Shown here piece after piece: positions 2,662-29,862 of a stretch of 34,577 nt of DNA (position 1 is its first letter; every line of letters starts with the position of its first letter). Origin of the DNA: Acidobacteriota bacterium (lineage in GTDB: Bacteria; Acidobacteriota; Vicinamibacteria; Vicinamibacterales; 2-12-FULL-66-21); the NCBI GenBank assembly GCA_003222675.1, contig QHWT01000082.1, positions 1 through 34,577 of the forward strand, given 5' to 3'. The translations under genes were made by a program, and so were the position numbers. Below the pieces are notes generated by a model. It made no database searches and was not told the DNA's origin. It worked only from the letters and a program-made list of their open reading frames with translations.

Positions 2662-2833
2662 ACGGTCTCACGCGCAGGCGCCGAGGCGCAGAGCACGGGG
2701 AGAAGACAACTGAAGAAGCGGCTGCCATGCGGCGCATCGCCAGCCCCGCGCTTTCGCGCGGGCCGGCTCGCAGGCTCCTCGCCGTCCTCTGCTCCTCTGG
2801 CATTTTCTCTGCGTGAGACCGTCTTCTCCCCGT
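2662..2833. repeat. Intergenic repeat island between serC and serA with two sets of inverted words
   Basis: The gap between serC and serA (2572-2892) has no convincing gene. It contains ACGGTCTCACGC at 2662-2673 with its exact complement at 2811-2822, and ACGGGGAGAAGAC at 2695-2707 with its exact complement at 2821-2833. The left half between these words is a degenerate run of GGCGC/GAGGCGCAGAG-like units (2675-2696). Because the order is A-B...A'-B', the two pairs cannot nest in one simple hairpin; they look like two copies of one element in opposite orientation. Short open frames here on both strands have no ribosome site or family resemblance, so I do not call them. Confidence 0.7.
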
Positions 2834-2892
2834 GAAGTGCGCGTTTCGCCGCAGCATTGTGCAACGCTAGCATCGCTCCCGGCTCCCAGCTT

Positions 2893-4143
2893 CTACAGCT
2901 TCACGAGATGCAGATCCAGCACGTCCGCGTTTCCACGTTTAATGGTGTCACACAGCGGCGAGGGCGGTTCGGCGTCGAGATTGATGCGTGCTACTGCCGC
3001 CTCAGCGCCTTCGAAGACGATGTTCTCCGTCTCCTGCACGTTGAGGTTCGCTTGCCGCAGATGGCTGAACACGTGCGCGAGGACGCCCGGTCGATCGCGA
3101 TGACGGACGACGAGCATGTGCGTCGCGGGCGTGCGGCGTGCAAGGTTCACCACGTTCGGCACGTGCCCTGTTTCCTTGTAGCTTCGGATGATGCGAATGG
3201 TTTCGGCCGCGATGGCCTCCTGCGCCTGTTCCGTTGAGGCGCCGATGTGGTGCGTGCCGTAAACGCCTGGAAGGGCGGTGAGCTCATCCTGGAATGGGCC
3301 GGTGGCGCTGGCCGGCTCATTCGCATAAACGTCGAGGCCGACGCGGAGGTTGCGCTCCTTCACCGCTGCCGCGAGGGCCCTGTAATCGACGACCTCGCCG
3401 CGGGCGGTATTCAGAAAGAGAGAGCCCGGTTTGAGCTTCGCGAGCAGTGCCGCGTTGACGAGCCCTTTCGTTTCGGGCGCAAGCGCAACATGAACGCTGA
3501 GCACGTCCGCGCGCGACGCGACGTCGGACGGCGTCGGGGCCAGCTCGATGTTGATCGCGCGCATCGCGCCTTCGATGCCGAGCTCTCGCGCTTCAACGTC
3601 GGTGATCGGCCGCCGTTCGCCGTCGAACCGGCGGCTCCACATCACGACGCTCATGCCGAACCCCGCGGCGCGGCGAATCATCTCGCGCCCGATGCTGCCG
3701 ACGCCGAGCAGGCCGAGCGTCCGGCCGTAGAGGCCCTGCGCCTTGGAGTACTCCTTCTTGTTCCAGCTTCCGCCGCGAAGCTCCGTGACGTTATCGGGGA
3801 TGCGGCGGTCGAGTGCCAGGATCAAGCCAAAGGCGAGCTCCGCGACGGCAATCGCGTTCTTGCCCGGGCAGTTGGATACGTAAATGCCACGACTGGATGC
3901 GCCGGCGACGTCGATAGTGTTATACCCGGCGCCGGCCCGGACGATGAGCGAGAGGTGCCCGGCGTCGAGCATTGATGCGGTGACCTTCGTGCCGCGGACG
4001 ACCAGCACGTCGGCGCCGCTCGCCGCGATGGCCTCGGTCAGCGGATCGTCCTTCAGATCGGGTTCGTATATAACGTCGCAACCGGCCGCCTTCAGCCCTT
4101 CGATTCCGCTCTTCTCGAATTTGTCCGCGACGAGCACTTTCAT
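2893..4143 (-). CDS. serA: D-3-phosphoglycerate dehydrogenase with C-terminal ACT domain
   Basis: The 416-aa NAD-dependent enzyme catalyses the first committed step of serine synthesis, oxidising 3-phosphoglycerate to 3-phosphohydroxypyruvate. The 2-hydroxyacid dehydrogenase fold is clear. The substrate-binding RAGAGYNTID is at 69-78, the nucleotide-binding GLLGVGSIG at 144-152, and the catalytic triad is R248 (NTARGE), E276 (YANEPA) and H299 (GTHHIGAS). Residues from about 342 to 416 form an ACT domain (VVRHRDRPGVLAHV), usually the serine-feedback site. An insertion at about 172-206 lengthens the cofactor domain compared with short SerA forms. The ATG at 4143 starts directly at the first strand (MKVLVADKF). 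Its neighbours serC downstream and DUF1015 upstream share its strand and probably its transcript. Confidence 0.95.
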   Translation of the reverse strand: MKVLVADKFEKSGIEGLKAAGCDVIYEPDLKDDPLTEAIAASGADVLVVRGTKVTASMLDAGHLSLIVRAGAGYNTIDVAGASSRGIYVSNCPGKNAIAVAELAFGLILALDRRIPDNVTELRGGSWNKKEYSKAQGLYGRTLGLLGVGSIGREMIRRAAGFGMSVVMWSRRFDGERRPITDVEARELGIEGAMRAINIELAPTPSDVASRADVLSVHVALAPETKGLVNAALLAKLKPGSLFLNTARGEVVDYRALAAAVKERNLRVGLDVYANEPASATGPFQDELTALPGVYGTHHIGASTEQAQEAIAAETIRIIRSYKETGHVPNVVNLARRTPATHMLVVRHRDRPGVLAHVFSHLRQANLNVQETENIVFEGAEAAVARINLDAEPPSPLCDTIKRGNADVLDLHLVKL

Positions 4144-4156
4144 CTGTCTATTGCAA

Positions 4157-4275
4157 TCGAAGGGTCGAAGGAATACCGACGTATCGAAGGATCGTCCGTT
4201 AGTTTAGTCGAAGGATCCTTCGACCGATTGAACGAAGGGTCCTTCGATTCCTTCGTTTTCCTGCGAAGCCTTCGA
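4157..4275. repeat. TCGAAGG word island, opposing arms, between DUF1015 and serA
   Basis: Four copies of TCGAAGG (4157, 4165, 4184, 4208) are followed by three copies of the complement CCTTCGA (4217, 4241, 4269). The junction is an 18-bp perfect palindrome at 4207-4224 (GTCGAAGGATCCTTCGAC). The island fills nearly the whole 136-bp gap and would fold into a long imperfect hairpin in the mRNA joining the two genes. The same word recurs at 8561-8640. It may act as an attenuator, a processing site or a mobile repeat. Confidence 0.8.
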
Positions 4276-4279
4276 TTGT

Positions 4280-5449: not shown

Positions 5450-5477
5450 CCCGCTATTTTAGTGGAGGAAAAAGTTG

Positions 5478-5545
5478 GAAGACGGAAGAAAGAAGAAGGA
5501 TGTGCTTCAGTCTCGCAGCTTCCGTCTTCAGCTTCCTTCTTTCGT
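5478..5545. repeat. GGAAGAC/GGAAGAA word island with inverted arms
   Basis: A purine run with 7-bp period (GGAAGAC, GGAAGAA, AGAAGAA) is followed 30 bp later by a pyrimidine run. GAAGACGGAAG at 5478-5488 is the exact complement of CTTCCGTCTTC at 5519-5529, giving an 11-bp stem with a 30-nt loop, extended imperfectly by CTTCCTTCTTTCG. It lies in the divergent gap between the DUF1015 gene and the TonB receptor, just upstream of a likely promoter. Confidence 0.65.
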
Positions 5546-5552
5546 CTCTCCA

Positions 5553-5581
5553 TTGACACCGCGTGTACTGACCGGTACGCT
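5553..5581 (+). promoter_or_regulatory. Candidate sigma-70 promoter for the first TonB-dependent receptor
   Basis: A perfect TTGACA at 5553-5558 is followed by 17 bp and TACGCT at 5576-5581, a weak -10. The receptor start codon is at 5619, which would give a leader of about 30 nt carrying GGAGGA at 5611-5616. The -35 and spacing are good and the -10 is poor, so confidence is moderate. Confidence 0.4.
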
Positions 5582-5618
5582 CGCTTGTTCTCTTCTACCA
5601 AATCGAATCGGGAGGAAT

Positions 5619-8555
5619 ATGCGTATTCGTCTGCTGGCCGGACTTGTCGCGGCGGTCCTGTCACTCTCTGTGCCCGCGTACGCACAAAGCACCTCGGGCT
5701 CCATCGACGGCGTAGTCGTTGACACGACCGGCGCCGTGCTACCGGGCGTCGCCGTCACCATCACCCACCAGGCCACCGCCGTCACTCGCGAGGTCGTCAG
5801 CGACGCGGAAGGCGTCTTCCGCGCGCCGGTGCTGCCTGTCGGACAGTACACCGTGAAAGCACAACTGAGCGGCTTCAAGATCGTCGAGCAGCGCGACGTC
5901 ACGCTGAACGTCGGGCAAACGCTGACGCTACGGCTCGAGATGACGGTATCGACCGTGGCCGAGAACGTCACGGTCAGCGGCAGCACGCCCGTGATCGAGA
6001 CGAGCCGGAGTCAGATCAGCTCCACCGTGAGTGAGACGTCGGTGCAGAACCTGCCGGTCAACGGCCGCAACTTCATCGACTTCGCGCTGCTCACGCCGGG
6101 CGTCACCAGAGACGTCCGGACGGGCGACATCAGCTTCGCGGGCCAGCGCGGCACCCTCAACAGCCTCGTTGTCGACGGCGCCGACAACAACAATACGTTC
6201 TTCGGGCAGACGCTCGGCCGCACGGGTTCAGGACGCGCGCCATACCAGTTCAGCCAGGACGCCGTGCAGGAGTTCCAGGTCAACTCCAACGCATACTCCG
6301 CCGAGTACGGACGCGCCGGCGGCGCCGTCATCAACGTCGTGACCAAGTCGGGGACGAACGACGTGCGGGGATCCGCATTCGAGTTCTACCGTGACAAGGC
6401 GCTCAACTCGAACGACGCGATCAACGCGCTGAATAACCGCGCGAAGTCCCCGTATCACTACAACCAGTTCGGCGGCACCGTCGGCGGCCCGCTCCAGCGC
6501 GATCGGCATTTCTTCTTCGCGAACTACGACGGCCAGCGGAACACGCAGCCGAACGACGTGTTCCTGAACGTGCCGGCCGGCACTCCCAACGATGCGGCGA
6601 CACAGGCGGCGCTCGCGCGCCTGCAACCGCTCGCGACGAGCTGGACGCGGACGCAGAACCAGGACGTCTTCCTTGCGAAGACCGATTCGCAGTTGACCGC
6701 GAACCACCGGCTCACCATCCGCTACAACCACCAGAATTTCACCGGCGAGGGGTTCGAGAACGGTGGACCGCAGAATTCGCTGGAGCACACGGGCGCATCG
6801 AACGTGCGCACGCGCACGATCAATGGGGGCGTGACGAGCGTGTTCCGGCCGACGCTGCTCAACGAGGCGCGCGCGCAGTGGGCACGCGATCAGGAGCCAG
6901 GCTTCGCGAACAGCGCGAACCCGGAGGCGACGATCCGCCAGGGCGTCTCGACGGTGCTGATCATCGGGCGCAACAACTTCAGCCCGCGCGAGACGACGAT
7001 CAAGCGCTTCCAGGCGGCGGACGCGATTACCTGGATTGCCGGCGCGCACAAAGTGAAGACAGGCATGGACCTGCAGTTCGATCGCATCCTGAACTTCTTT
7101 CCGGGCAATTTCTCCGGGAACTACCTGTTCAACAGCCTCGCGTCGTTCACGGGCGGCCAGCCCAGCGGACCGGGCGAACGCTACACGCAGGCGTTCGCGG
7201 GCGAGGGGACCACGGGCCCCGAGACACATCCTGATATCGACGAGTACTCGTTCTTCGCGCAGGACGAGTGGCGTCTGTCGAGCGATCTGACGGCGAACGT
7301 GGGCATCCGCTACGATCTGCAGCGCTTCGCGCAGCCAGCGGTGAAGAATCCCGACGCGCAGCTCGCCGGCGCCGGAATCGACACCAGCCGTCTGAACACC
7401 GACGCGAACAACTGGGGCCCGCGGGTCGGCCTCGCGTGGAGCCCGAAAGGACGCCGCTACGTGGCGCGCGCCGGCTACGGCCTGTTCTACGGCCGCACAC
7501 CGTCAATCATGGTGGGCACGGCGCACTCGAACAATGGCATCAACGTGCAGACGATCACCTTTACGGGTGCGCAGGTGCCGACCTATCCAAAGACCTTCGC
7601 CTCGATCCCGAGCGGCGCCACGATCCCGAAGCCGACGATTTTCGTGTTCGATCCCGGCTACGAGAACCCGCGTGTGCAGCAGGCGAGCGCGGGCGTCGAC
7701 TTCGCGTTGAATCCCGCGACGTCGGTTTCGGTGAGCTACCTTTTCGTGCACGGCGATCAGTTGTCGCGCTCGACGGACATCAACATCGGCGCTTCGACGC
7801 CGATCGCATTCACGACCACCACCGGGGAATCGCTCCCGTATTACCAGTTCGCAGCCGGACCGTTCACGAACTTCGGACGCATCATCGCGTTCCAGAGTTC
7901 CGCCGTCTCGACCTACAACGGGATGACGCTGGAGCTGAATCGCCGCTTCATACACGGCTTCCAGGGGCGCGCGGCCTACACGCTGGGCAAGGTAGAAGAT
8001 ACCGTGCCGGACGCGACGGCGGTAGTGCCGGGCGGCGGTGACGATGCGAAGTTCGCGTCAAACCCGGCGAACTTCGACGCGGACCGCGCACCCGGGAACA
8101 ACGATCAGCGCCAACGTCTGGTGCTGAGCGGCGTCTACACGACGAACGCGCATGGATCGAGCGCGCTCGTCGAGCGGCTGACGCATGGATGGACGTTCGC
8201 CGCGATCTTCACTGCGGCGTCGGGACAGCCGTACAGCGCTTACGTCAGCGCGGACATCAATCGCGATGGGAATAACCGCAACGACATCGCGCCCGGCACG
8301 TTGCGCAACCAGTTCCGGCTGCCGTCGCAGGTCTCGCTCGATCCGCGCATCGCGCGCGACATCGCCGCGGGGCGCGCGAAGATCCAGGTGATTTGGGAAG
8401 CGTTCAACCTGCTGAATCGCGACAACATCAGCTCGGTGCGCAACGGACTGTACACCGCGAACGGCACAGTGCTGACGCGCGCATCGAACTTCCAGGAGCC
8501 GCTGACCTCGTCGGGCCCCCGTATCATGCAGCTGGCGATGAAGGTCAGTTTCTAA
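5619..8555 (+). CDS. TonB-dependent receptor with N-terminal carboxypeptidase-regulatory-like domain (Oar-like)
   Basis: The 978-aa outer-membrane receptor probably imports or binds a large substrate using TonB energy; the substrate cannot be read from the sequence. A signal peptide (MRIRLLAGLVAAVLSLSVPAYAQ) is followed by a beta-sandwich regulatory domain (about 27-110, with GAVLPGVAVTIT and LSGFK). Next comes a plug domain (about 115-260, with LPVNGRNFIDF, VDGADNN and AEYGRAGGAVINVVTKSGTN), then a long beta-barrel ending MQLAMKVSF with the terminal aromatic residue of outer-membrane proteins. The frame is open 48 codons further upstream to 5475, but that stretch is repeat sequence. The ATG at 5619 has GGAGGA just before it and begins the signal peptide. 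It stands alone between divergent and convergent neighbours, so it is likely monocistronic. Confidence 0.93.
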   Translation: MRIRLLAGLVAAVLSLSVPAYAQSTSGSIDGVVVDTTGAVLPGVAVTITHQATAVTREVVSDAEGVFRAPVLPVGQYTVKAQLSGFKIVEQRDVTLNVGQTLTLRLEMTVSTVAENVTVSGSTPVIETSRSQISSTVSETSVQNLPVNGRNFIDFALLTPGVTRDVRTGDISFAGQRGTLNSLVVDGADNNNTFFGQTLGRTGSGRAPYQFSQDAVQEFQVNSNAYSAEYGRAGGAVINVVTKSGTNDVRGSAFEFYRDKALNSNDAINALNNRAKSPYHYNQFGGTVGGPLQRDRHFFFANYDGQRNTQPNDVFLNVPAGTPNDAATQAALARLQPLATSWTRTQNQDVFLAKTDSQLTANHRLTIRYNHQNFTGEGFENGGPQNSLEHTGASNVRTRTINGGVTSVFRPTLLNEARAQWARDQEPGFANSANPEATIRQGVSTVLIIGRNNFSPRETTIKRFQAADAITWIAGAHKVKTGMDLQFDRILNFFPGNFSGNYLFNSLASFTGGQPSGPGERYTQAFAGEGTTGPETHPDIDEYSFFAQDEWRLSSDLTANVGIRYDLQRFAQPAVKNPDAQLAGAGIDTSRLNTDANNWGPRVGLAWSPKGRRYVARAGYGLFYGRTPSIMVGTAHSNNGINVQTITFTGAQVPTYPKTFASIPSGATIPKPTIFVFDPGYENPRVQQASAGVDFALNPATSVSVSYLFVHGDQLSRSTDINIGASTPIAFTTTTGESLPYYQFAAGPFTNFGRIIAFQSSAVSTYNGMTLELNRRFIHGFQGRAAYTLGKVEDTVPDATAVVPGGGDDAKFASNPANFDADRAPGNNDQRQRLVLSGVYTTNAHGSSALVERLTHGWTFAAIFTAASGQPYSAYVSADINRDGNNRNDIAPGTLRNQFRLPSQVSLDPRIARDIAAGRAKIQVIWEAFNLLNRDNISSVRNGLYTANGTVLTRASNFQEPLTSSGPRIMQLAMKVSF

Positions 8556-8654
8556 CAATCGAAGATTCGCAGCAGAAGCGAAGGAATCGAAGGAGCCAAC
8601 ATGAATTTTGATGATTCCTTCGAACCTTCGGTCTTCCTTCAACTTCTCCGATTG
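8556..8654. repeat. TCGAAGG word island between convergent genes, possible bidirectional terminator
   Basis: The gap between the receptor stop and the M23 gene stop contains AATCGAAG, GCGAAGGAATCGAAGGA (8579-8595), then the complementary words ATTCCTTCGAACCTTCGG (8613-8630) and TTCTCCGATTG. The opposing arms can form an imperfect stem with a central loop around 8596-8612. It is the same word family as the island at 4157-4275. Placement between two converging genes would suit termination on both strands, but no U-tract proves it. Confidence 0.7.
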
Positions 8655-8657
8655 AAA

Positions 8658-9935: not shown

Positions 9936-9979
9936 TATGCCCGGAGCATAGCAGAATCCGGGGGAGCCTATGATCTTAC

Positions 9980-10060
9980 GATTTGGTGATCTCGCAATTT
10001 CGTGATTTGGTGATTTGGTGATTCCTCAAATCACCAAACTGGCAAATCACCCAATCACCA
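9980..10060. repeat. GATTTGGTGA word island with opposing arms
   Basis: Between the M23 gene and the propeller gene the 8-bp word TTTGGTGA repeats at exact 8-bp period (10004-10022) with degenerate copies from 9980. It then appears as its complement in AAATCACCAAAC and AAATCACCCAATCACC (10028-10060). Bases 10014-10023 pair perfectly with 10029-10038 around a 5-nt loop. The island begins four bases past the stop codon of the propeller gene. Related words are found at 15878-15935, 22566-22653 and 29845-29862. Confidence 0.85.
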
Positions 10061-10063
10061 GAC

Positions 10064-11989
10064 CTATTGGCCCGACACCCACACGCCCCACCCGCCCGTC
10101 TTGTGGCTGTGGAACGCGACGCGATGACCATCGGGCGCCCACGTGTACTCCTCCGCGGTCGGATCGTCCAGCACGCGGCGCATCGATCCGTTTCGTAGAT
10201 CGAGGAGCCACGCGCCATCCCGGTAGACCTGGAAGATGATGCGCCGGCCGTCGGGAGACACGGCAGGCGTACGCACGAGGCGGCCGCGGATCGGGGTCGT
10301 GAACACGCGCCGCGCGCCGGTTTCGAGGTTCATCACCACCAGGTCGGTCTCGTGGCTGTACGCGATTCGCGATCCGTCAGGAAACCATGAGCCGCCCCAT
10401 GGTTGGCCGTAGTCGTAGGACGTGAGACGCTGCAGCTTGCCGCTCTCGAGATCCGTCGCCCACAGATTCCACACGCGGGGATTCGTCGCCTCCCCCTTGA
10501 CGAACGCGAGCCGCGACCCGTCGGGCGACCAGCTTGGCACTGCCGCGAAACCATCGCCGCTGACCCGGTGGACATTGTGGCCGTCGGCGTCGGCGACGAA
10601 CACCGCGCGCGTACCTTCACGATCCGAATCGAAGGCGATGGAGGCGCCGTCGGGTGACGGGCGCACATGGAAGTTCTGCGCGGTGTCGTCGACGATGCGA
10701 GTGATCTTCAAGACTTCGCCGCGGGCGCCGGTATCGGCGCGCACGAGCGCGCTGCCGGTGCGATCCTGCTCGTGGAAGAAAATCGCAGTCCCGGTGTTCG
10801 AGAACGTCGGCGAGTACGACACGGGCTGCGTAATCGCGCGCGGCAGTTCCTGCGAACGATCCTGCGGCGCGGGCATATCGACGGCGCGCAAGTTCGTCCC
10901 GGTCGGAGTGCGGGCGGTCTCGGCCGCAGAGCTCTCGACGGCGCGGCCCTCGGGTGCGGGGCTCCCGGCTGTCGGCACCTGGTTCCGAACTTCCCTGGCC
11001 GAGACGGTCTCGGCCGGCACGGCTGGACGCTGCACGTGCTCCCACACCGCCGGCACGAAGGCGAGCGCGAGCATGGCCGCTGCGACTGCTGCAATCCAGA
11101 TCCCGCGGGCGCGGCGGCGAAGCGGCTCGATTGTTTCAACCTCGGCGTCGATCACATCGACATCGCGTCGCTCGACGGCATGAGGACCGTACGGCACGAG
11201 CGCTTCGATAGGCCGCTCCGCCGGTACCGGTGCAGATTTCTCCGGACCGCGCACCGCGACCGCCTCTTCGAGCAGCGGCCATGCGACGTTGACCACGACG
11301 GACTCATCGAGGCCGGCGGCGCGGGCGTAGCGCACCATTTGAGATCGACCGTACAAGCCTTCCGGCCAGTTACGCAGATACCCCCATTCGAGCTCGCGCA
11401 GCAGGTGTGCGGGGATACGCGCACGCGTCGAGACTTCCTCCAGCGACAAGCCCGTTGCGCGCCGCGCGCGTCTGACGTCCGAAATCGTCAATGCCTCGCG
11501 CGCTGGAAGATCGATCGGAACGGGTGCGGCATGCGGCGCGGACGCCGCGTGTTCTCGCTCGATCTGAGCCGCGGCCGTCGCGAACAGATTCCGCACGACC
11601 TGTTCGAGATTCGGTGCCGCAAAACGATTGATGGCACCGCAAAATTCCTCGAGTGAGGCGTACGGCGGGAGATCCAGCGTTCCAAGCGCGCGCGCAACTA
11701 CGAGCCGCAAGGCGCCTGGAGCGCGATACTCTACCGGCGCGTCGAACTGCTCCAGCAGCTCATCGAGGAGCGCAGCGGCGCCTGCCACGGGCGGCCGATC
11801 CGTATTGACCGGTCCCTCGACCACAACCGTGCCCTGCTCTGTCAGGCGAACGATGTGCGCCGACGGGATCCCACGCAGCACTCCTTGATCCCGCTGCCGG
11901 CAGATTTCCGACACGATGGCCACGGCATCGGCGGCGCGCAGGCGCACGCCCGAGGCGGCCAGCTCAGATAATGAAACTCGGGTGGGCAT
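10064..11989 (-). CDS. Pseudokinase remnant / RodZ-like HTH / TM / PD40 beta-propeller fusion protein
   Basis: The 641-aa protein has an unusual domain order. Residues 1-125 resemble the middle of a protein-kinase C-lobe without catalytic residues: RGIPSAHIVRLTEQGTVVVEG at 39-59 occupies the place of HRDLKPxN...DFG, and GTLDLPPYASLEEF follows. A RodZ-like helix-turn-helix lies at about 165-232 (ISDVRRARRATGLSLEEVS, then RELEWGYLRNWPEGLYGRSQMVRYAR). A membrane helix spans about 297-315. Residues about 390-641 carry TolB/PD40-type blades (RPSPDGASIAFDSDREG, SWSPDGSRLAF, SWFPDGSRIAY, AVSPDGRRIIF, TWAPDGHRVAFHS). Topology would put the HTH in the cytoplasm and the propeller in the periplasm. The start is taken as ATG 11989; a GTG at 12022 is possible. 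It lies on the same strand as the TonB-like and PEGA pseudokinase genes. Confidence 0.8.
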   Translation of the reverse strand: MPTRVSLSELAASGVRLRAADAVAIVSEICRQRDQGVLRGIPSAHIVRLTEQGTVVVEGPVNTDRPPVAGAAALLDELLEQFDAPVEYRAPGALRLVVARALGTLDLPPYASLEEFCGAINRFAAPNLEQVVRNLFATAAAQIEREHAASAPHAAPVPIDLPAREALTISDVRRARRATGLSLEEVSTRARIPAHLLRELEWGYLRNWPEGLYGRSQMVRYARAAGLDESVVVNVAWPLLEEAVAVRGPEKSAPVPAERPIEALVPYGPHAVERRDVDVIDAEVETIEPLRRRARGIWIAAVAAAMLALAFVPAVWEHVQRPAVPAETVSAREVRNQVPTAGSPAPEGRAVESSAAETARTPTGTNLRAVDMPAPQDRSQELPRAITQPVSYSPTFSNTGTAIFFHEQDRTGSALVRADTGARGEVLKITRIVDDTAQNFHVRPSPDGASIAFDSDREGTRAVFVADADGHNVHRVSGDGFAAVPSWSPDGSRLAFVKGEATNPRVWNLWATDLESGKLQRLTSYDYGQPWGGSWFPDGSRIAYSHETDLVVMNLETGARRVFTTPIRGRLVRTPAVSPDGRRIIFQVYRDGAWLLDLRNGSMRRVLDDPTAEEYTWAPDGHRVAFHSHKTGGWGVWVSGQ

Positions 11990-15607: not shown

Positions 15608-15877
15608 ACGCGTCGCGCGGCTGCAACGGTGGGACCACGCCTCTCATGAATCGGGCCAACGTCCGCAAACGACGGGGGCCGCGACACTTCATGCCCGTTC
15701 GGACCGCGCGGCGGCCCTCGCGTCGGTTTACAGGCCTGTCGGTACGATCACGATTGTGCAACTCAGAATTGTTGTTTTGGTGGTTCAGAGATGGGTTGAT
15801 TTGACTGATGAATCAGCGATGGGCACGCGCCGCGTACTGGCCGCGCTTTGAAGCGCGCGCGGGAGCGCGTGCGACAA

Positions 15878-15935
15878 GATCACCAAATCACGAAAATCAC
15901 CAAGTCACGTCACCAAATCACCAAGTCACCAGATC
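15878..15935. repeat. AAATCACC word island upstream of the GT-C operon
   Basis: About seven degenerate 8-9 bp units of the word TCACCAAA/TCACGAAA/TCACCAAG run in one direction. They are the complement of the TTTGGTGA word at 9980-10060 and 22566-22653. Unlike the island at 9980, all copies here face the same way. The array ends 35 bp before the ribosome site of the small ORF, so it would lie in the leader or promoter of that operon. Confidence 0.8.
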
Positions 15936-15969
15936 CCAAGTATGCTGGCTTGATTGGCCCCCGCAGCAC

Positions 15970-15980
15970 GGAGGAGAAGG
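15970..15980 (+). promoter_or_regulatory. Strong ribosome binding site before the small ORF
   Basis: GGAGGAGAAGG directly precedes the ATG at 15981. The core GGAGG (15970-15974) sits six bases from the start codon. This is among the best ribosome sites in the window and supports translation of the short frame that follows. Confidence 0.65.
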
Positions 15981-16091
15981 ATGAAGAACGCGACGATCAT
16001 CACGGCGTTCGCGTGTCTCGCGGCGAACCGTGAGGAGAAGCTGCGGCGCAAACCGCTGCCCGCGGCGGCGGCCGGACGCGCAACACGGTGA
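15981..16091 (+). CDS. Small 36-residue ORF translationally coupled to the GT-C-like gene
   Basis: The short frame runs from ATG 15981 to TGA 16089-16091. It encodes a basic, alanine- and arginine-rich peptide beginning MKNATIITAFACLAANREEK and ending AGRATR. I recognise no family. Two things support it: the strong GGAGG ribosome site six bases upstream, and its stop codon overlapping the GTG start of the next gene in a GTGA sequence (16088-16091), a typical translational-coupling arrangement. The GT-C-like gene has no ribosome site of its own outside this frame. It could be a leader peptide that loads ribosomes onto the membrane-protein gene, or a small partner protein. The first 14 residues are mildly hydrophobic but too short for a clear signal or membrane helix. 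Confidence 0.55.
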   Translation: MKNATIITAFACLAANREEKLRRKPLPAAAAGRATR

Positions 16092-18022: not shown

Positions 18023-18438
18023 ACATCGAACGCTTCCGGCAGCTGTGCCTTTCGATGCCCGGCGCGACCGAGCGCGTCCAGTGGGGCAATGACCTCGTCT
18101 TCAAGGTCGGCGGACGGATGTTCGCCGTTGCCGCGCTGGACGCGGGCGCCAGCCATCGCGTCTCGTTCAAGTGCTCCGAGGACCACTTCGTCGAGCTGCA
18201 GGAAAATGAGGGCGTCGTTCCCGCGCCTTATCTCGCGCGGGCGAAATGGGTCGCGCTGGAGCGGTTCGATGCGCTCGACGATCGAACGATCGACGCCTGC
18301 GTGCGCGAGGCGCACGCGCTGGTGAAGTCGAAGCTCACCAAAAAGGAACAGGCGGCGCTCGACGCTACTTCGCGACGGTCTCCCGCAAGGCCTCGAACAG
18401 GATCTGGATCGCGGGCGCGATCGCGTCGGTCGGGATGA
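18019..18438 (+). CDS. MmcQ/YjbR family protein
   Basis: The 139-aa cytoplasmic protein fits the MmcQ/YjbR family (double-wing-like fold, often labelled DNA-binding, role not established). Family landmarks are FRQLCLSMPGATERVQWGND at 5-24, KVGGRMFAVAAL, VSFKCSEDHFVEL, APYLARAKWVAL and the C-terminal REAHALVKSKLTKKEQ. The ATG at 18019 overlaps the stop of the GT-C-like gene (ATGA), so expression is probably coupled; the open frame further upstream is a shadow. The natural family end is near residue 115. The remaining ~25 residues are Arg/Ser-rich and lie inside the convergent M20 gene, with which it overlaps by 74 bp. That tail may be recent extension. Confidence 0.8.
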   Translation: MNIERFRQLCLSMPGATERVQWGNDLVFKVGGRMFAVAALDAGASHRVSFKCSEDHFVELQENEGVVPAPYLARAKWVALERFDALDDRTIDACVREAHALVKSKLTKKEQAALDATSRRSPARPRTGSGSRARSRRSG

Positions 18439-19718: not shown

Positions 19719-19816
19719 GTGGCCATCTATCAGATCAACATCTATCGATCTGGAGAGGAAAGCCGAGCACGTCTACCACAACTGATAACCATTGACCTGA
19801 CGCGACGCAACCCGCG

Positions 19817-22550: not shown

Positions 22551-22565
22551 CCTCGTAGAATATTT

Positions 22566-22653
22566 GATTTGGTGATCGGGTAAGTTAGTGATTCGGTGAG
22601 TGCACGGTTTGGTGATTTGGTGATTGAACAATTTGGTGATTTGGTGAGTGAAC
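22566..22653. repeat. GATTTGGTGA word island filling a divergent promoter gap
   Basis: About nine degenerate copies of the 8-bp word (GATTTGGTGA, GATTCGGTGA, GGTTTGGTGA, GATTTGGTGA, AATTTGGTGA, GATTTGGTGA) occupy almost all of the 108-bp space between the divergent aminotransferase and M16 genes. Any promoter for either gene must therefore lie within or next to the repeat. The array reads in frame as repeated FGDLV residues upstream of the M16 start, which explains a spurious N-terminal extension. Confidence 0.85.
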
Positions 22654-22658
22654 GATTC

Positions 22659-24101
22659 ATGCCTCGTCCGGTGTTGTCGATCGTCGGCCTCCTCGCTCTT
22701 GCATCTTCCTTGACGCTGACGACAGTCAGAAGCGGCATGGTCGCTCACCTGCAAGCGAGCGCCGCGAGCGCGCAGCGCGGTGGGGTCGGGGCCCCACCGA
22801 GCGAAGTGAAAATCGAGATCCCCTACACGCAGTTCACGCTGCCGAACGGCCTGCACGTGATCCTGCACGAGGATCACACTGTGCCGCTGCTGACGGTGAA
22901 CGTGTGGTACCACGTCGGCTCGGCCCGGGAAAAACCCGGCCGCACCGGGTTCGCGCATCTCTTCGAGCACCTGATGTTCGAAGGCTCCGGGCACGTGAAG
23001 GAGGGGCAGTTCGACGAGCTGCTCGAGGCGGCGGGGGCGACCAACAACGGATCCACGGAGAACGACCGCACGAATTACTACATCGACGCGCCGTCGAACG
23101 CGCTCGATCTCGCGTTGTTCCTCGAATCCGATCGCATGGGCTACCTGCTCGACGCGATGTCGCCTGCCCGCGTCAACGGGCAGCGCGATGTCGTCAAGAA
23201 CGAGCGGCGGCAGAGTTACGAGAACGCGCCGTACGGCATGGCCTCGATCGCGATCGGAGAGATGCTCTATCCACAAGGACATCCGTACCACTGGCCGACG
23301 ATCGGCTACATGGAAGATCTCACCGCGGCGAGCTACGAGGATGTCGTCGACTTCTTCAAGAAGTACTACCAGCCGGCGAATGCCAGCCTGGTCGTTGCAG
23401 GCGACATCGATCCCGCAAAGGCGCGCGCGGGGATCGAGAAGTGGTTTTCCGATGTGAAGCCGGGGACCGGCGTTGTCCCTCCAATCGACTACCCGCACGC
23501 GTTGCTCACGGAAGCGAAGCGGAAGACGATCCAGGATCGGGTGCAGTTGCCGCGCCTGTACCTGGACTGGATCACGCCCGCGCACTTCGCGCCGGGAGAC
23601 GCCGAGCTCGACGTGGTGTCGATCCTCCTCGCAGGCGGAAAGAATTCGCGACTGTACAAGCGGCTCGTGTACGACCTCCAGATTGCGCAGGACGTCTCCG
23701 CGGTGCAGCAGTCGATGGCGCTCAACTCGCAATACGAGATCGCCGTGACGGCACGCCCGGGCACTGACGGCGCCACCGCGGCCGCAACAATCGAACGCAT
23801 TCGCGGCATCGTGGACGAAGAGATTCGCGCACTGCAGCAGGCGCCGCCGGACGCGCGCGAGTTCCGCCGCGCGCTCAACCAGATCGAATCGTCGTTCTAC
23901 AACCGGCTGGAAAGGGTCGGCGGATTCGGCGGCGTGGGCGATCAGCTCAACGCCTACTACTTCGCTGCGGGGAATCCCGGCTACTTCAACGAGGATTTGT
24001 CCCGGTATGCCGCGCTGTCGCCAGCAGCCATCCAGGCCGCGGCGGCGCGCTTCCTGCCGCTGGATAAACGAGTGGAGCTCGTCGTGGAGGCCGCGAAGTG
24101 A
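22659..24101 (+). CDS. M16 family (insulinase-like) zinc peptidase, catalytic subunit, secreted
   Basis: The 480-aa protein is a pitrilysin/insulinase-type peptidase, probably periplasmic. The inverted zinc motif HLFEH lies at residues 100-104 (H100, E103, H104), with the distal ligand E182 in KNERRQSYEN. The first M16 domain (about 50-230) is followed by the second (about 235-480, with LYLDWITPAH and LLAGGKNSRLYKRLVYDLQIAQ). A signal peptide begins MPRPVLSIVGLLALASSL. ATG 22659 is chosen because the 21 codons upstream (to 22596) are repeat-encoded. The stop overlaps the GTG start of the second M16 gene (GTGA), as in two-gene M16 heterodimers where one subunit is catalytic. Confidence 0.92.
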   Translation: MPRPVLSIVGLLALASSLTLTTVRSGMVAHLQASAASAQRGGVGAPPSEVKIEIPYTQFTLPNGLHVILHEDHTVPLLTVNVWYHVGSAREKPGRTGFAHLFEHLMFEGSGHVKEGQFDELLEAAGATNNGSTENDRTNYYIDAPSNALDLALFLESDRMGYLLDAMSPARVNGQRDVVKNERRQSYENAPYGMASIAIGEMLYPQGHPYHWPTIGYMEDLTAASYEDVVDFFKKYYQPANASLVVAGDIDPAKARAGIEKWFSDVKPGTGVVPPIDYPHALLTEAKRKTIQDRVQLPRLYLDWITPAHFAPGDAELDVVSILLAGGKNSRLYKRLVYDLQIAQDVSAVQQSMALNSQYEIAVTARPGTDGATAAATIERIRGIVDEEIRALQQAPPDAREFRRALNQIESSFYNRLERVGGFGGVGDQLNAYYFAAGNPGYFNEDLSRYAALSPAAIQAAAARFLPLDKRVELVVEAAK

Positions 24102-25553
24102 TCCCTCGGTCTTCGTTTCTTCGCCGCCTCTGTGTACCGGCTGCCGCCGCTGCCTTGTGTGGTGTCGGGCTTCACGCCGGTCAGCAGCCCGATCGTTCGA
24201 AGGCTCCTGCGATCGGCGCGCCGCCGGAGCTGCACCTTCCCGCAATCGAGAAGAGCACGCTCTCGAATGGTCTTCAGGTCTGGATCGTCGCAGAGCACAA
24301 GGTGCCGGTGGCTCACGTCGAGCTCGCGCTCGCCTCGGGAAGCGGCGCGGACCCGGCACAGAAGTTCGGCCTTGCGAGCCTCACCGCCGACATGCTCGAT
24401 GAAGGCGCCGGTTCCCGCTCGGCGCTCGAGATTTCGGACACGGTCGACTATCTCGGCGCAGAGCTCGAAACGTCGAGCTCCAGCGACGCCTCGTATGTCG
24501 ACCTGCACGTCCCGGTTGCCCGGTTGGGCGACGCATTGCCGGTGATGGCCGATGTCATCGCACACCCCGACGTTCCCCGACGCCGAATTGAAGCGGCTCC
24601 GCGAAGAACGGATCACCTCGCTGCTCCAGGCCGAGGACGATCCGGGGCAATTGATACAGTTCGCGTTTCCGCGCCTGGTGTACGGAGCGGTGCACCGTTA
24701 CGGGACGGCATCCATCGGGACCGCCGCGTCGCTGCGCGGCTTCACGCGGGCCGACCTCGTCTCGTTTCACGCGGCGGTGTATCGACCGCAGAACGCAATG
24801 CTTGTCGTGACGGGGGACGTGATCGCGGCCAATGTCATCCCGATGCTCGAGACCACGCTCGGTCAGTGGAAGGGGAACCCCGCCGCGCCGCCGCCCGGAC
24901 TCAGCGACGCTCGTCAGCTGACCGCGCGCCATGTGTACCTCATCGACAAGCCGGGCGCGGCGCAGTCGCAAATCCGCATCGGGTGGATTGGCGTCCCGCG
25001 CTCAACGCCTGATTACTTCGCGTTGCGGGTCCTGAATACGATCCTCGGCGGTGCGTTCACGTCGCATCTGAATCAGAACCTGCGCGAGGAGCACGGATAT
25101 GCTTACGGCGCTTCGTCCGCATTCGACACGCGGCGTCGGGCGGGGCCCTTCTTCGCAGCCGCGGGCGTGCAGACCGACAAGACCGCCGATGCGCTGAAGG
25201 AGTTCTTCAACGAGCTGAACCGCATCCACGAGCCTGTCGGCGTCGAGGAGATCGAAAAGGCGAAGAACTATCTGTCGCTGCTGCTGCCGCGGAACTTCGA
25301 GACCACGCGTGCCACCGCGAACGCACTGGTGCAGATCGCCGTGTACGATCTTCCGCAGGATTTCTACGAGACATACGGACAGCGGGTGCGCGCCGTCACA
25401 GCCGCTGACGTCAGGCGCGTCGCCGACAAGTACATCCAGCCCGCGAAGTTCGCCGTGGTGATCGTCGGCGATCGGAAAGCGATCGAACCTGGCGTCCGCG
25501 CGTTGAACCTGGGACCGGTAACCATCGTGGAAGCTGCGGACGTAATGAAGTAA
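24098..25553 (+). pseudogene. M16 family non-catalytic partner subunit, interrupted by a single-base frameshift
   Basis: The first frame (GTG 24098) encodes a signal peptide (MIPRSSFLRRLCVPAAAAALCG) and an M16 N-terminal domain, TLSNGLQVWIVAEHKVPVAHV. GLASLTADMLDEGAG then occupies the place of HxxEH and has no zinc ligands. Homology stops at ADVIAHP near 24568 and resumes one base later in another frame as TFPDAELKRLREERITSL, continuing to MK at 25553. That part includes the R/Y-type region LREEHGYAYGASSAF. Removing one base in ACACCCCGACG (24563-24573) would give one protein of about 484 aa. This is either a sequencing/assembly indel in a C-run or a recent inactivating mutation. It would normally pair with the catalytic subunit immediately upstream, to which it is coupled by a GTGA overlap. 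Confidence 0.85.
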
Positions 25554-25564
25554 CTACACACCTC

Positions 25565-25603
25565 GGACCCCGGACCCCGGACCCCGGACCTCGAACCTCG
25601 AAC
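25565..25603. repeat. GGACCCC heptamer tandem repeat before the DinB-like gene
   Basis: The exact 7-bp unit GGACCCC occurs three times (25565, 25572, 25579). It decays to GGACCTC (25586), GAACCTC (25593) and GAAC, so the period is kept for about 5.6 units. It fills most of the 50-bp gap and abuts the ATG of the DinB-like gene, leaving no room for a normal ribosome site. Confidence 0.85.
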
Positions 25604-26092: not shown

Positions 26093-26107
26093 CGCGAATA
26101 ATGTCCA

Positions 26108-26180
26108 TGCGGAAGGTCGAGTGCTGAATGCTCAACGGTTCTTCCGCAATTCGTCATTCAGCATTCAGCATTCTTCAGCA
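26108..26180. repeat. ATTCAGC heptamer island with inverted words between convergent genes
   Basis: The word ATTCAGC repeats in CATTCAGCATTCAGCATTC (26155-26173) and once more as TTCAGCAT. GCTGAATGC at 26123-26131 is the exact complement of GCATTCAGC at 26161-26169. TGCGGAAG at 26108-26115 is the complement of CTTCCGCA at 26141-26148. The island lies between the stops of the DinB-like gene (plus) and the class III aminotransferase (minus), and supplies the last codons and stop of the latter. It may serve as a bidirectional terminator. Confidence 0.75.
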
Positions 26181-27495
26181 TCGACAAGCCTCTCTCGATG
26201 ATGCCGAACCCGTGGCGCAGCTCCTCCTCGCTGATCGACAGCGGCGGATTGGTGAAGAACGTGTTCCAGCGGACAAACGTGTAGAGCCCTTCCTCGCGGA
26301 AGAACTTTCCGAGTCGCTTCATTGGTTCCGAGGTACCGTTGAATGGCGCCAGCGGTTCCATGGACGATCGATTCTTCACCAGCTCCACGATCCCGAAGAG
26401 TCCGATCGCGCGCGTGGCGCCGACGATCGCGTGGCGCGACGCGAGACCGTCCATCAGTCCTTTCATGATCCCGCCCATCCGTCGCGCGTTCTGAATCAGA
26501 CCGTCCTCTTCGTATACCTGCAGCGTTGCCAGCGCGGTCGCGCACGCCAGCGGATGGCTGTTGTAGGTGAGGCCGCCGAAGAACACCTTGTCGCGGAAGT
26601 GCTCCGCGATCGCGTGCCGCATGCCGACGGCCCCGAGCGGCACATACGCGCTCGTCAGGCCCTTCGCCATCGTCAACAGATCCGGCACGACGCGCCAGTT
26701 GTCGACGGCGAACCACTCGCCGGTCCGGCCGAAGCCGGACATCACCTCGTCGGCGATCATCAGGATTCCGTGTTTCGTACAGATCTCACGCACGCCCTGA
26801 AGGTAACCGTCGGGCGGCACGAGCACGCCGTTCGTGCCGACGACGGGTTCGAGGATGAAGGCGGCGATCGTCTGCGCGCCTTCGAGCTGGATCGTCTCCT
26901 CGAGATCCGCGAGCGCCTTCTCCGTCGTGTCCCACCCGCGCTGAATGCCGTGATACGGATTGAGCAGATGAACGACGCCGGCCATGCCGGGCTCGGAGGC
27001 CCACCGGCGCGGATCCCCTGTCAGGATCATCGCGCCCGCCGTCGCGCCGTGATACGAGCGATAGAACGAGAGGATCTTGTGACGGCCGGTGAACTGGCGC
27101 GCGAGCTTGACGGCGTTCTCGTTGGCCTCGGCGCCGCCGTTCGTGAAGAAGAACGTGTCGATGTCTCCTGGCGTGATCTCGGCGAGCTTCTGTCCGAGCC
27201 TCGCGCGCGGCTCGGTGGCCATGAACGGATTGGCATACGCGAGCGTCTCGACCTGACGCTGGATGGCACGAACGACCCGTTCGTGGCCGTGGCCGATGTT
27301 GACGCACATCAACTGGCTGTTGAAATCGAGAAAGCGCTTTCCTTCCGGCGTCCAGAACCAGCAGCCTTTCGCGCCGGCCACCGGAATCGGATCGACTGCT
27401 CCCTGCGCGGACCACTCGAACAACGTATGCCGGCGCGTGAGGTCGACAATCGTCTGCCCATCGAGGCCGGCCGTCGTGCTGTCTGCGATCTTCAT
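26158..27495 (-). CDS. Class III aminotransferase (omega-transaminase type)
   Basis: The 445-aa PLP enzyme transfers an amino group between an amine or omega-amino acid and a keto acid. Visible features (from this start): WSAQGAVDPIPV at 29-40, NIGHGHERVV, FFTNGGAEANENAVKLAR (115-133), SFYRSYHGAT (143-152), E216 in ILEPVVGTNG, D249 in LMIADEVMSGFGRTGEW, and the Schiff-base lysine K278 in MAKGLTSAYVPLGAV. The N-terminal WSAQGAV pattern recalls taurine- or beta-alanine-type transaminases, but the substrate is inference. ATG 27495 is chosen over an upstream ATG at 27516 because GGAG stands five bases before it. The last residues (NAEC) are encoded by the ATTCAGC repeat. It follows the SDR and symporter genes on the same strand. 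Confidence 0.92.
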   Translation of the reverse strand: MKIADSTTAGLDGQTIVDLTRRHTLFEWSAQGAVDPIPVAGAKGCWFWTPEGKRFLDFNSQLMCVNIGHGHERVVRAIQRQVETLAYANPFMATEPRARLGQKLAEITPGDIDTFFFTNGGAEANENAVKLARQFTGRHKILSFYRSYHGATAGAMILTGDPRRWASEPGMAGVVHLLNPYHGIQRGWDTTEKALADLEETIQLEGAQTIAAFILEPVVGTNGVLVPPDGYLQGVREICTKHGILMIADEVMSGFGRTGEWFAVDNWRVVPDLLTMAKGLTSAYVPLGAVGMRHAIAEHFRDKVFFGGLTYNSHPLACATALATLQVYEEDGLIQNARRMGGIMKGLMDGLASRHAIVGATRAIGLFGIVELVKNRSSMEPLAPFNGTSEPMKRLGKFFREEGLYTFVRWNTFFTNPPLSISEEELRHGFGIIERGLSMLKNAEC

Positions 27496-27500
27496 GTTGG

Positions 27501-27504
27501 CTCC
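27501..27504 (-). promoter_or_regulatory. Ribosome binding site for the class III aminotransferase
   Basis: GGAG on the minus strand lies five bases before ATG 27495, favouring this start over ATG 27516. The adjoining 27508-27531 contains another word-like run, TGGCTCATGACTTAATGACTCA-like in appearance, too short to call as a repeat. Confidence 0.5.
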
Positions 27505-27552
27505 TGAATGGCTCATGACTTAATGACTCAGGGGCGCATGCCGGCTCACGGC

Positions 27553-28338: not shown

Positions 28339-28349
28339 CAGAGATCCCC

Positions 28350-29762
28350 CTAGCTGCTCGCCGCCGCCGGCGTTGGTGAAGAAGGACGCCCGGTTAGAAA
28401 GGCGGCGGCCGCAAAGGCCATCACGGCCGCGCCAAGCCCGCACATCGCGGGCGTGAAGATGCCGATCGGTTTGCCGCCGTTCCATAGTTGCGCCGCCACG
28501 ACCGCAACGAGCCCTCCGGCGATCGCCGCGAGCGCGTCGAATGCGCGCACGCGCCGCATGAACAGCCCGGCCACGATGGGCACGAACAGGCTGACACCCA
28601 GCAGCGTGTAGAAGATGCTGAGCGCATCCACGACGGTGTCCGACAGGGACGCGACGAGAATGCCGAGCAGACCGCCCGCGACCGACGCCGCCCGCGCGAC
28701 GGTGAGTACCTGCGTGTCGGTCGCCGCTGGATTCACGAAGCGTTTATAGAGGTCCTGGGAGAGCGACGTCGCCAGCATGAACAGGATCGTATCGGCGGCG
28801 CTCACTTCTGCCGAGAACACCGCCGCCAGGCCGAGGGCTCCCACCCAGAACGGCAGGTCGTGCATGAACAGCATCGGGAGCGCGAGCTCGCGATTCGAAA
28901 GGTCCGGGTGCAGCACGTGCGCGATCATGCCGAGCAGCGCCGGCATCAGCGCGTATCCGAACAGCGCTGCCGCGTTCAGGCCAACGCCTATGCGCACAGT
29001 GCGATCGTCACGCGCGCCGTACACTTTCTGCAGGAGACCGGGCGACACGACGAACGCAGGCGTCAGCATCGCGACGTACATCCATCCAGATTCGCCGTTT
29101 TCCCACGGGTTCCACATCGCCGCGTCGGGAAGCGCGGTTCGCAGCGCATGGACGCCGCCGACCCCATGCAGCGCGAGCGGCAGCGCGACGACGAAGCCGA
29201 GGACCTTGACGGTCAGCTGCACGACGTTGACGGCAGCCGACGATTTGAGTCCACCCGCTCCGAAGTACGCCGTCACCACGCCGGCGCCGATCACGCAGCC
29301 GACGATCTTCGGAAGCCCGATGACGACGGTCAGGACCCGGGCGAGGCCGATCAACTGTCCCGCAAGAATCGCGATCGTAGCCATCCACAGCAGGATGGCA
29401 ATCGTGGCGCGCACGCGCCGGTCGTATCGCCATTCGAGGAAATCGCCAACGGTCCGGAGATCGTGCGCCGCGGCAATGCGGCGGATCCGAGGCCCGACCC
29501 ACAGCGCGAGAATGATGGATCCAATTCCCGCGGAACCCACCCACCACCAGCCGGCCAGTCCGTCACGGTAGCCGAGGCCCGTGGCCCCGATCGTCGACCC
29601 ACCGCCAATGTTGGCGGCAAGGAACGTGGCAAACAGCAGCCCCGGGCCGAGGCTGCGTCCCGCGACGAAGAAGTCGCGAGATCCCTGCACGCGCCGCGCG
29701 ACCCAGATCCCCAGCGCGATCTGCGCCAGCGAGTACAAGATGATGATCAGCAGGTACGCCAT
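28350..29762 (-). CDS. Sodium:solute symporter (SSS family)
   Basis: The 470-aa inner-membrane transporter has about 13 hydrophobic helices and imports a small solute with Na+. Family marks are RSLGPGLLFATFLAANIGGGSTIGATG (about 36-62) and SAEVSAADTILFMLATSLSQDLYKRF (317-342), the helix that normally forms the sodium-2 site and ends with D-[IL]-Y-K. A third is the Q-containing loop SPGLLQKVYGARDDRTVRIG (240-259). Length is somewhat shorter than PutP-type members. The substrate cannot be read directly. The downstream SDR and class III transaminase suggest an amino- or hydroxy-compound that is oxidised and transaminated after uptake. It is first gene of the operon, divergent from the M20 deacylase gene. 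Confidence 0.92.
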   Translation of the reverse strand: MAYLLIIILYSLAQIALGIWVARRVQGSRDFFVAGRSLGPGLLFATFLAANIGGGSTIGATGLGYRDGLAGWWWVGSAGIGSIILALWVGPRIRRIAAAHDLRTVGDFLEWRYDRRVRATIAILLWMATIAILAGQLIGLARVLTVVIGLPKIVGCVIGAGVVTAYFGAGGLKSSAAVNVVQLTVKVLGFVVALPLALHGVGGVHALRTALPDAAMWNPWENGESGWMYVAMLTPAFVVSPGLLQKVYGARDDRTVRIGVGLNAAALFGYALMPALLGMIAHVLHPDLSNRELALPMLFMHDLPFWVGALGLAAVFSAEVSAADTILFMLATSLSQDLYKRFVNPAATDTQVLTVARAASVAGGLLGILVASLSDTVVDALSIFYTLLGVSLFVPIVAGLFMRRVRAFDALAAIAGGLVAVVAAQLWNGGKPIGIFTPAMCGLGAAVMAFAAAAFLTGRPSSPTPAAASS

Positions 29763-29801
29763 CAGATCAAGAGGACGTGTATGGGGTGGCTGCCGAGTCG
29801 T

Positions 29802-29817
29802 ATTGTACCGGTATAGT
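29802..29817. promoter_or_regulatory. Back-to-back candidate -10 elements in a divergent gap
   Basis: TACAAT on the minus strand (29802-29807) and TATAGT on the plus strand (29812-29817) flank a short palindrome TACCGGTA (29806-29813), between the symporter and M20 deacylase genes. Neither has a recognisable -35 at 16-18 bp. The palindrome could be an operator half-site, but this is tentative. Confidence 0.3.
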
Positions 29818-29844
29818 CGATGCGATTCTCAATCGGCATTCACG

Positions 29845-29862
29845 GAGTCACTAAATCACCAC
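29845..29862. repeat. Short AAATCACC word remnant
   Basis: GAGTCACTAAATCACCAC consists of two degenerate units of the TCACCAAA word found in the islands at 9980, 15878 and 22566. It ends six bases before the start of the M20 deacylase gene. Confidence 0.5.

Follow-up and report, generated by a model that had tools for sequence, protein, structure and literature searches.

The short tandemly repeated repetitive (STRR) sequences of heterocystous cyanobacteria are heptads that lie as 7-bp tandem units in gene gaps. The foldback (FB) elements of Drosophila are kilobases long and carry inverted arms of short tandem repeats around unrelated loops. GGGAATC heptads in Xanthomonas and GGGGA(C/T)T heptads in Nostoc, the function of which was described there as unknown, were reported by Rehm et al. 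(2015), whose paper also mentions three repetitive heptanucleotides in Calothrix (PMC4692102), and the TAACTGA direct repeats of the Beggiatoaceae were reported by MacGregor (2015; PMC4679880). In the account of long simple sequence repeats (LSSRs) by Mrazek et al. (2007), as summarized in these two papers, heptanucleotides are the commonest long repeat unit in most genomes, and slippage is proposed (PMC4679880; PMC4692102). The repetitive extragenic palindromes (REPs) and their hairpin-forming doublets (REPINs), which are GTAG-tagged, are small intergenic foldbacks with a conserved core, some of them linked to a Y1 transposase (PMC3733652). Repeats of heptameric units are on record from several phyla, and the available text of the two heptad papers leaves their origin and role open (PMC4692102; PMC4679880). 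Here, we analyze islands of tandem 7- and 8-bp words in the gene gaps of a 34,577-nt stretch of DNA (contig QHWT01000082.1, GCA_003222675.1), hereafter the window, which lies on contig C86 of a 7.16-Mb, 152-contig genome (G000) of the Vicinamibacterales (hereafter the order), Acidobacteriota. By its DUF1015 protein, the nearest named relatives are two Acidobacteria metagenome genomes with 69% and 65% amino-acid identity. A preliminary description of the window had listed ten such sites, to which we refer by position (Table 1).

This description was largely right, and the islands in the window are the visible edge of a genome-wide feature. We surveyed the window and about 1.19 Mb of six other contigs (C60, C151, C6, C152, C4 and C37), 1.22 Mb in total, and found 135 period-7 arrays in 154 kb of intergenic DNA versus 22 in 1068 kb of called coding sequence. 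This corresponds to 0.88 versus 0.02 arrays per kb, a difference of about 42-fold, although genes were called with a home-made script, which may have put some arrays into “coding” sequence by mistake and which left coding sequence in the lengths of some gaps. The view that the islands are confined to gene gaps was thus nearly right genome-wide. Heptad arrays lie within long called open reading frames (ORFs) at C6:167252-167325 and C152:42783-42965, and could be tolerated in-frame islands or gene-call errors. A period of 7 dominates: pairs of identical 5-mers number 1295 at distance 7 (48 expected), 278 at 8 and, weakly, 127 at 9, and no other period stands out within 3-13. A scan of periods 5-12 at the threshold of the survey gave 13 intergenic arrays at period 8, nine at 9, two at 10 and none at the rest. 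Among gaps of 30-600 nt, arrays occur in 101/389 co-directional, 23/94 convergent and 11/110 divergent gaps, so that divergent gaps are depleted (124/483 in the rest, p 2e-4). Shuffled gaps do not give such arrays; in an earlier, smaller survey, 65 period-7 arrays were called, 64 of them real and one a stretch of N, compared with 0.7 in shuffles. Because the window islands are mostly degenerate and only two exceed the survey threshold, the counts for the genome are conservative.

The words listed for 139 intergenic islands of the survey number in dozens. At C151:62737-62913, in a convergent gap, a nearly perfect array of about 25 AGCTGGG copies extends over 177 bp in a single orientation. We also considered regional word dialects, which were rejected when the apparent clustering within 30 kb vanished without the ribosomal operon stretch (p 0.81, 0.33); clustering in the 30-100 kb class remained at p 0.04.

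The conserved ribosomal S10-spc-alpha operon, located on contig C60 at 11.8-32.4 kb, serves as a constant background against which the appearance, disappearance and word changes of islands can be followed in each gap; arrays are found in 18 of its 22 gaps of at least 40 nt. Its gene names are presumptive, assigned from the known S10-spc-alpha order and lengths rather than from an annotation. Integron attC sites, suggested by the regular spacing of islands between the short C60 genes, were rejected because the genes have the S10-spc-alpha order and lengths, and because tblastn with the C60 proteins finds the identical gene order in relatives. The operon sample comprised G000 and 20 relatives, followed by 20 more genomes of the order, with some operons cut by contig ends. 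In the 21 genomes, 131 of 288 gaps have arrays against 5.4 +/- 2.6 in shuffles; the 288 gaps include rplE-rpsH and infA-rpsM, each of which holds a small non-query gene (36 gaps, 15 of the 131 calls), as well as three fusA-rpsJ “gaps” above 1.3 kb. The rplE-rpsH and infA-rpsM gaps were left out of the 41-genome array count, the array counts outside the order and the gap-label permutation below, and kept in the word-sharing and island-position counts and the outside-order polarity test. No array was called in the operon gaps seen in 11 of the 41 genomes of the order, a count in which some calls of G036 are doubtful (one is a poly-A run). The operon islands, which are intercistronic, start at a median of 4 nt past the stop codon and end at a median of 16 nt ahead of the next start codon (n = 157). 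Words in one operon gap differ between genomes, while the bases adjoining the start codon are often retained, and AGGATCA or a similar sequence stands ahead of the ATG in the rplW-rplB gap of several genomes. Much foldback DNA is thus tolerated between ribosome genes, which makes the islands a useful case for operon function and genome stability.

The common layout is an array of a word, a loop and then the reverse complement of the word, and the claim that unrelated words share this one layout was borne out. Of 114 operon islands, 85 have a reverse-complement arm of the same word (7.6 expected); elsewhere, such an arm occurs in 47/88 co-directional, 10/22 convergent and 12/17 divergent islands (6.4, 1.1 and 2.9 expected). 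The fold is no worse after the units of the 3' arm have been permuted (mean z -0.01, p 0.87, in 115 islands): the two arms have a word in common without matching each other in the order of its variants, as expected if each arm is written separately. A difference between the stop-side and start-side arms, seen by eye in one genome outside the order (G086), is absent from the pooled set. The loops (95 in the order) are about as alike for the same word in different genomes as for different words (mean 10.3 vs 10.0), and the loop motif AACGGA occurs at six places in 3.8 kb of loops versus 0.62 per kb of intergenic DNA. In the rpsD-rpoA gap of G036 (L155), a two-arm island has a longer AACAAAAGAACAAAT-type unit facing its complement, which suggests that the layout is not limited to units of 7-9 bp.

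Each word keeps one polarity. Where two islands have a word in common, their 5' arms agree in the strand of it that they carry in 527 of 602 pairs (301 +/- 12 under random flips), and in 290 of 342 pairs between genomes (171 +/- 10). An AGCT-containing, near-palindromic word takes part in 44 of the 75 exceptions, and the single 177-bp array at C151:62737, which the script had split into two arms, in 22; agreement without the AGCT words is 322/353 (177 +/- 9). In 25 of 40 distinct words G outnumbers C in the 5' arm, and in eight C outnumbers G. Six of 20 Acidobacteriota genomes outside the order have operon arrays by the gap test, and polarity agrees within this set in 47 of 58 pairs (null 29 +/- 4).

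The word repertoire tracks the lineage, that is, genome and family, and hardly the gap position at all. Among 138 period-7 islands of 28 genomes, words are shared with at most one mismatch in 28.8% of pairs within a genome, 14.4% within a family and 3.8% between families, and in 2.1-2.4% after shuffling of the letters. Within families, a word is shared in 18 of 113 pairs from the same gap versus 278 of 1948 from different gaps (Fisher p 0.58), and when gap labels were permuted inside genomes, same-gap sharing was 17/111 (15.3%) against 11.5 +/- 2.6% (p 0.11).

Islands are also gained and lost between congeners, and their places change quickly; orthologous gaps are not conserved base by base. 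The congener G001, with matches of 72-87% DNA identity, is colinear with window positions 509-22922, the span compared. No array was called in its gaps at 4157, 5478, 8556 and 9980, of which the 5478 gap holds single GGAAG motifs and the 8556 gap is 19 nt long; the 22566 array is not seen in the G001 sequence at the same place, and the gap at 2662 has a single-arm TCCTGTC array instead. The 15878 island lies at the edge of a stretch absent from G001 (window 15755-18370, about 2.6 kb; the flanking matches there are about 98 nt apart), and this stretch includes a 644-aa ORF (16088-18022) with a weak F5/8 type C match. Elsewhere, the genes that flank the 4157 gap are about 16 nt apart at L029 and have an AAGCGGA array between them at L030. 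In 48 orthologous gaps from 20 stretches of 18 contigs, 11 have islands called only in G000, one only in G001 and none in both, and outside the window the query stretches were picked for holding G000 islands, and further contigs for matching those, so that G000 islands are over-sampled. G001 has arrays of its own, mostly with other words: 12 in 16.7 kb of intergenic sequence (0.72 per kb). Pairs of genomes within the order agree with this turnover. In the rplV-rpsC gap of G060, an additional block precedes a 12-nt leader found identically in G014 and G027, although the end of the upstream gene differs as well, and the rpoA-rplQ gaps of G015 and G028, which are about 94% identical in three ribosomal genes, have different words. 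Compared with G015, the rplF-rplR gap of G028 (L142) has a block with a 7-bp direct repeat, ACTGAGT, on either side, which resembles a classical mobile insertion and seems separate from the islands.

Islands with identical arms can differ in their loops. G086 has arrays in 11 of 13 gaps of at least 40 nt, all of them two-armed, and one 31-nt arm sequence occurs exactly at five places and once more in inverted form, while loops compared across 12 islands show no more likeness than shuffled loops (6.08 vs 6.02 +/- 0.21). In its family relative G096, the gaps rpsQ-rplN, rplF-rplR, rplX-rplE, rpmC-rpsQ and rplW-rplB, where G086 has islands, measure 2-29 nt, and where both have islands (rpsJ-rplC and rpmD-rplO) the words differ.

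Dispersal within a genome is well supported. We favor, at about an even chance, the hypothesis that the islands are dispersed foldback repeats with arrays of 7- or 8-bp words as arms, and that they spread by copying of the arms. The ends of a broken or stalled gap would copy about 30 nt of heptads from islands elsewhere, and if the donor hairpin is copied inwards, from its outer side to the loop, two inward-facing arms would result. SbcCD acts on hairpins, and the loop could be a junction remade later, for example by SbcCD-type cleavage of the hairpin tip followed by repair, after which 7-bp slippage may homogenize each arm. Such arm copying with rewriting of the loop would account for the polarity, the independent arms and the unrelated loops. 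In all probability the islands are near-neutral passengers that persist where they disrupt no promoter and no reading frame, and an effect on mRNA is possible, as a secondary matter. The results can be put as testable statements: that arms can be copied without the loop, that words follow genome and family and that polarity is fixed.

Several observations weigh against this hypothesis. The search of three enzyme families (Y1 transposase, the reverse transcriptase family RVT_1 and Ku) brought no responsible enzyme to light, nor was an intermediate found. The threshold for opposite arms is loose, and because words of other islands pass it in 584 of 1843 trials in either orientation, single arm calls are not individually safe. 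Polarity agreement between the order and other Acidobacteriota is moderately supported (119/157, null 78.6 +/- 19). The 11:1 ratio of islands between G000 and G001 is biased because the G001 stretches were chosen partly for G000 islands, and the gap C6:155222 seems, by eye, to hold a degenerate island shared by both genomes. At the five 31-nt sites of G086, one of ten loop pairs is somewhat alike, and by eye the rpsJ-rplC loop resembles that of rpsC-rplP. Furthermore, loops within a genome have a mean score of 12.5 for the same word versus 11.2 for different words, and scores of at least 20 are reached in 8.2% of 73 same-word versus 1.1% of 948 different-word pairs. The loops of the TGATTTGG octad family are related and REPIN-like (19% of 78 pairs score at least 26), and the hairpin tip CCAGCAGCWAGCTGG recurs at four places, all in one 25-kb stretch. 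The related octad loops, the recurring tip and the likeness of same-word loops within a genome indicate that whole hairpins are sometimes copied.

The preliminary description had proposed a single process, such as slippage. There are indeed signs that gain, loss and word switching have a process in common, and neither refutation named in that description came true, given the shuffled gaps and the comparison of orthologous gaps above. A purely local slippage is not supported. In its extended form, this explanation holds that polymerase slippage with a preferred 7-bp step, the LSSR view, makes the first arm and quasi-palindrome template switching the second; it agrees with the dominance of period 7, the variable arm lengths and the marginally greater likeness of adjacent than of distant units (0.765 vs 0.742, p 0.10). 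It predicts words seeded in each gap and random polarity, whereas words are shared by distant gaps of a genome and across the family, and polarity is constant; slippage is disfavored as the sole cause. The identical 31-nt arm at five G086 loci and the island-free orthologous gaps in relatives also speak against it, and we judge the extended form improbable. Alternatively, a dedicated or opportunistic activity could extend both 3' ends of breaks in gene gaps by about 30 nt of a heptad word specific to the genome, healing internal breaks much as telomeres are made; the polarity would then mark the synthesized strand, and the repertoire would be the pool of templates, which we consider very improbable. 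A templating activity and a repeat-targeted nuclease had also been suggested; nothing pointing to such a nuclease or to a dedicated templating enzyme was found, with three families of candidate enzymes searched.

It is also conceivable, if unlikely, that the islands are non-autonomous mobile elements moved by a transposase, either REPIN-like with a REP-associated tyrosine transposase (RAYT) or akin to miniature inverted-repeat transposable elements (MITEs), and that the arrays are their expanded ends. The presence or absence of islands between relatives, their fixed polarity, the REPIN-like cores of the TGATTTGG family and two Y1_Tnp matches in G000 are all in line with this. Y1_Tnp, the only transposase family searched, nevertheless had no match in five of 21 genomes, including the island-rich G003 and G029 (incomplete, at 93% and 97%); RVT_1 had none in 25 of 37 genomes (including G008, G003 and G052) and Ku none in 8 of 37 (including G016 and G033), so that each of the three lacks a match in some island-bearing genomes. 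No target-site duplication was detected over 143 islands (longest direct flank match 3.64 vs 3.61 +/- 0.06), with arm borders that are approximate, and the loops are unrelated for most words. The inverted flank match is raised in the same islands (3.78 vs 3.53 +/- 0.07), as if the arms pass the called borders. Selected RNA hairpins, acting as intercistronic stabilizers, processing sites, terminators or translational elements for which the word is irrelevant, would explain why arms stay complementary while words change, and they fit the stop-to-start position within the ribosomal operon, the avoidance of divergent gaps and a mean fold z of -2.28 in 104 operon gaps with islands. Yet pairing at the level of units is not optimized, the same essential operon is array-free in the 11 genomes mentioned above, gaps of 2-29 nt suffice in G096 where G086 has islands, and a role independent of the word leaves polarity and the preference for 7 unexplained, which makes this explanation doubtful as well.

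In the window itself, the islands were examined with Tandem Repeats Finder (TRF), by direct reading and by 500 Markov shuffles per gap scored with three statistics: the best array, inverted pairs and the count of 4-mers at distance 7 or 8. The described letters are present at all ten sites, eight of which are clear or supported. The strongest islands are those at 9980, 15878, 22566 and 25565 (best-array p 0.002-0.010); the islands at 5478 (array p 0.008), 8556 (array p 0.028, inverted pairs p 0.016) and 4157 (array p 0.042) are supported, and the island at 2662 is significant only for 4-mers at distance 7/8 (p 0.004; array and inverted pairs both p 0.10). The gap statistics are not significant at 26108 (array p 0.35, inverted pairs p 0.05), where the word CATTCAG extends into the 3' end of the called gene 26158-27495 with 2.7 perfect copies there according to TRF, nor at 29845 within its gap (array p 0.44). 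One of five control gaps (24102-24551) reached p 0.03, on one statistic. Opposed arms, as claimed for several arrays, are visible by eye at six sites (2662, 4157, 5478, 8556, 9980 and 26108), and 22566 and 25565 are single arrays. The statement that the word differs between gaps holds in that unrelated words occur; however, the octad TTTGGTGA/TGATTTGG is common to 9980, 15878, 22566 and the weak 29845 site, and TCGAAGG to 4157 and 8556, so that there are fewer words than one per gap. A genome search with the octad pattern TGATTTGGTGATTTGG gave 28 matches, of which some overlap within one array; the reversed control pattern gave none. Covariance models of Rfam gave no match in the window at gathering score.

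Table 1. Positions and layout of the repeat islands in the 34,577-nt window.
Feature	Position	Strand	Context
Two-arm island, GCAGAG(GC)-like word, long GC-rich loop	2662..2836	.	serC-like (1477-2652) / serA-like (2893-4143) gap
Two-arm island TCGAAGG ... CCTTCGA	4155..4276	.	serA/DUF1015 gap; inverted pairs p 0.002
Two-arm island GGAAGAA/GGAAGAC ... GTCTTCC	5473..5552	.	Divergent gap ahead of outer-membrane protein gene 5619-8555
Two-arm island TCGAAGG ... CCTTCGA	8556..8655	.	Convergent gap
Two-arm octad island TGATTTGG ... CCAAATCA	9971..10064	.	TRF, reading, gap statistics
Octad island: weak 5' arm, loop with GC-rich double palindrome, 3' arm AAATCACC	15771..15942	.	
Octad array TTTGGTGA, single orientation, 24-bp higher order	22564..22660	+	
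Heptad array GGACCCC/GGACCTC, single orientation	25558..25603	+	
Weak two-arm island TGCTGAATGC ... CATTCAGCATTC	26108..26190	.	Touches 3' end of gene 26158-27495(-); not significant
Possible octad-word remnant AGTCACTAAATCACC	29845..29862	.	Not significant

Some loop sequences recur within G000. By eye, the loop text GAGAAGACAACTGAAG of the 2662 island is found again in a second GCAGAG island at about 130.3 kb on contig C4. A REPIN-like double palindrome with CTACC/GGTAG tips is present in loops of TGATTTGG islands (for example L014, L018 and L028) and at window positions 15800-15875. Other palindromes, of the CCGGGTCTGAAGACCCGGCCTAC and GGCGGACCTTCAGGTCCGCC types, recur within islands at 79.0 kb of C60, 65.4 kb of C4, 151.6 kb of C151 and 177.1 kb of C6, three times with GGCTCA/TGAGCC words.

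The parallel drawn earlier with the STRR sequences is apt: both are 7-bp tandem units in gene gaps, and the phylum and the set of words differ. Like STRRs and LSSRs, the islands are 7-bp tandem arrays beyond chance with a preference for non-coding DNA. Repeats of that kind have one or a few words per genome, tied to the genome more than to the locus; the words here are specific to genome and family and come in dozens. The inverted arms of short repeats are also found in the FB elements of Drosophila, which differ in being eukaryotic and kilobases long. The LSSR account, as summarized in the two heptad papers (PMC4679880; PMC4692102), is without arm polarity or a genome-wide word repertoire, unlike what we see here. 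The Xanthomonas and Nostoc repeats resemble the islands in being heptads, mostly intergenic and rare between divergent genes, and in varying in length and sequence between related species, and the Xanthomonas heptads also form convergent (inverted) pairs, 70 and 75 in two genomes. In the same paper, however, one word family per genome was studied, as G-quadruplexes, and most repeats in Xanthomonas lie between the same genes in both genomes (PMC4692102), whereas here there are dozens of words, most of them not G-runs, and location is hardly conserved between relatives. The TAACTGA heptads of the Beggiatoaceae likewise stand just upstream of start codons, some in ribosomal protein operons, but are described as one word with 169 direct-repeat sets and one indirect, in contrast to the many words and commonly two arms here (PMC4679880). 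REPs and REPINs are similar as small intergenic foldbacks (PMC3733652) and in the cores of the TGATTTGG family; most islands differ in showing no conserved core, and some rich genomes in showing no Y1 match. A conserved palindromic core was found in the TGATTTGG octad family alone, the loops of other words being mostly unrelated. No earlier description of such islands in Acidobacteria was found in the open-licence literature, the part of the literature that was covered. Compared with the heptads of the two papers (PMC4692102; PMC4679880), the islands described here stand out in how many words they use, in commonly having two arms, in a polarity that was put to the test and in being hardly inherited by position.

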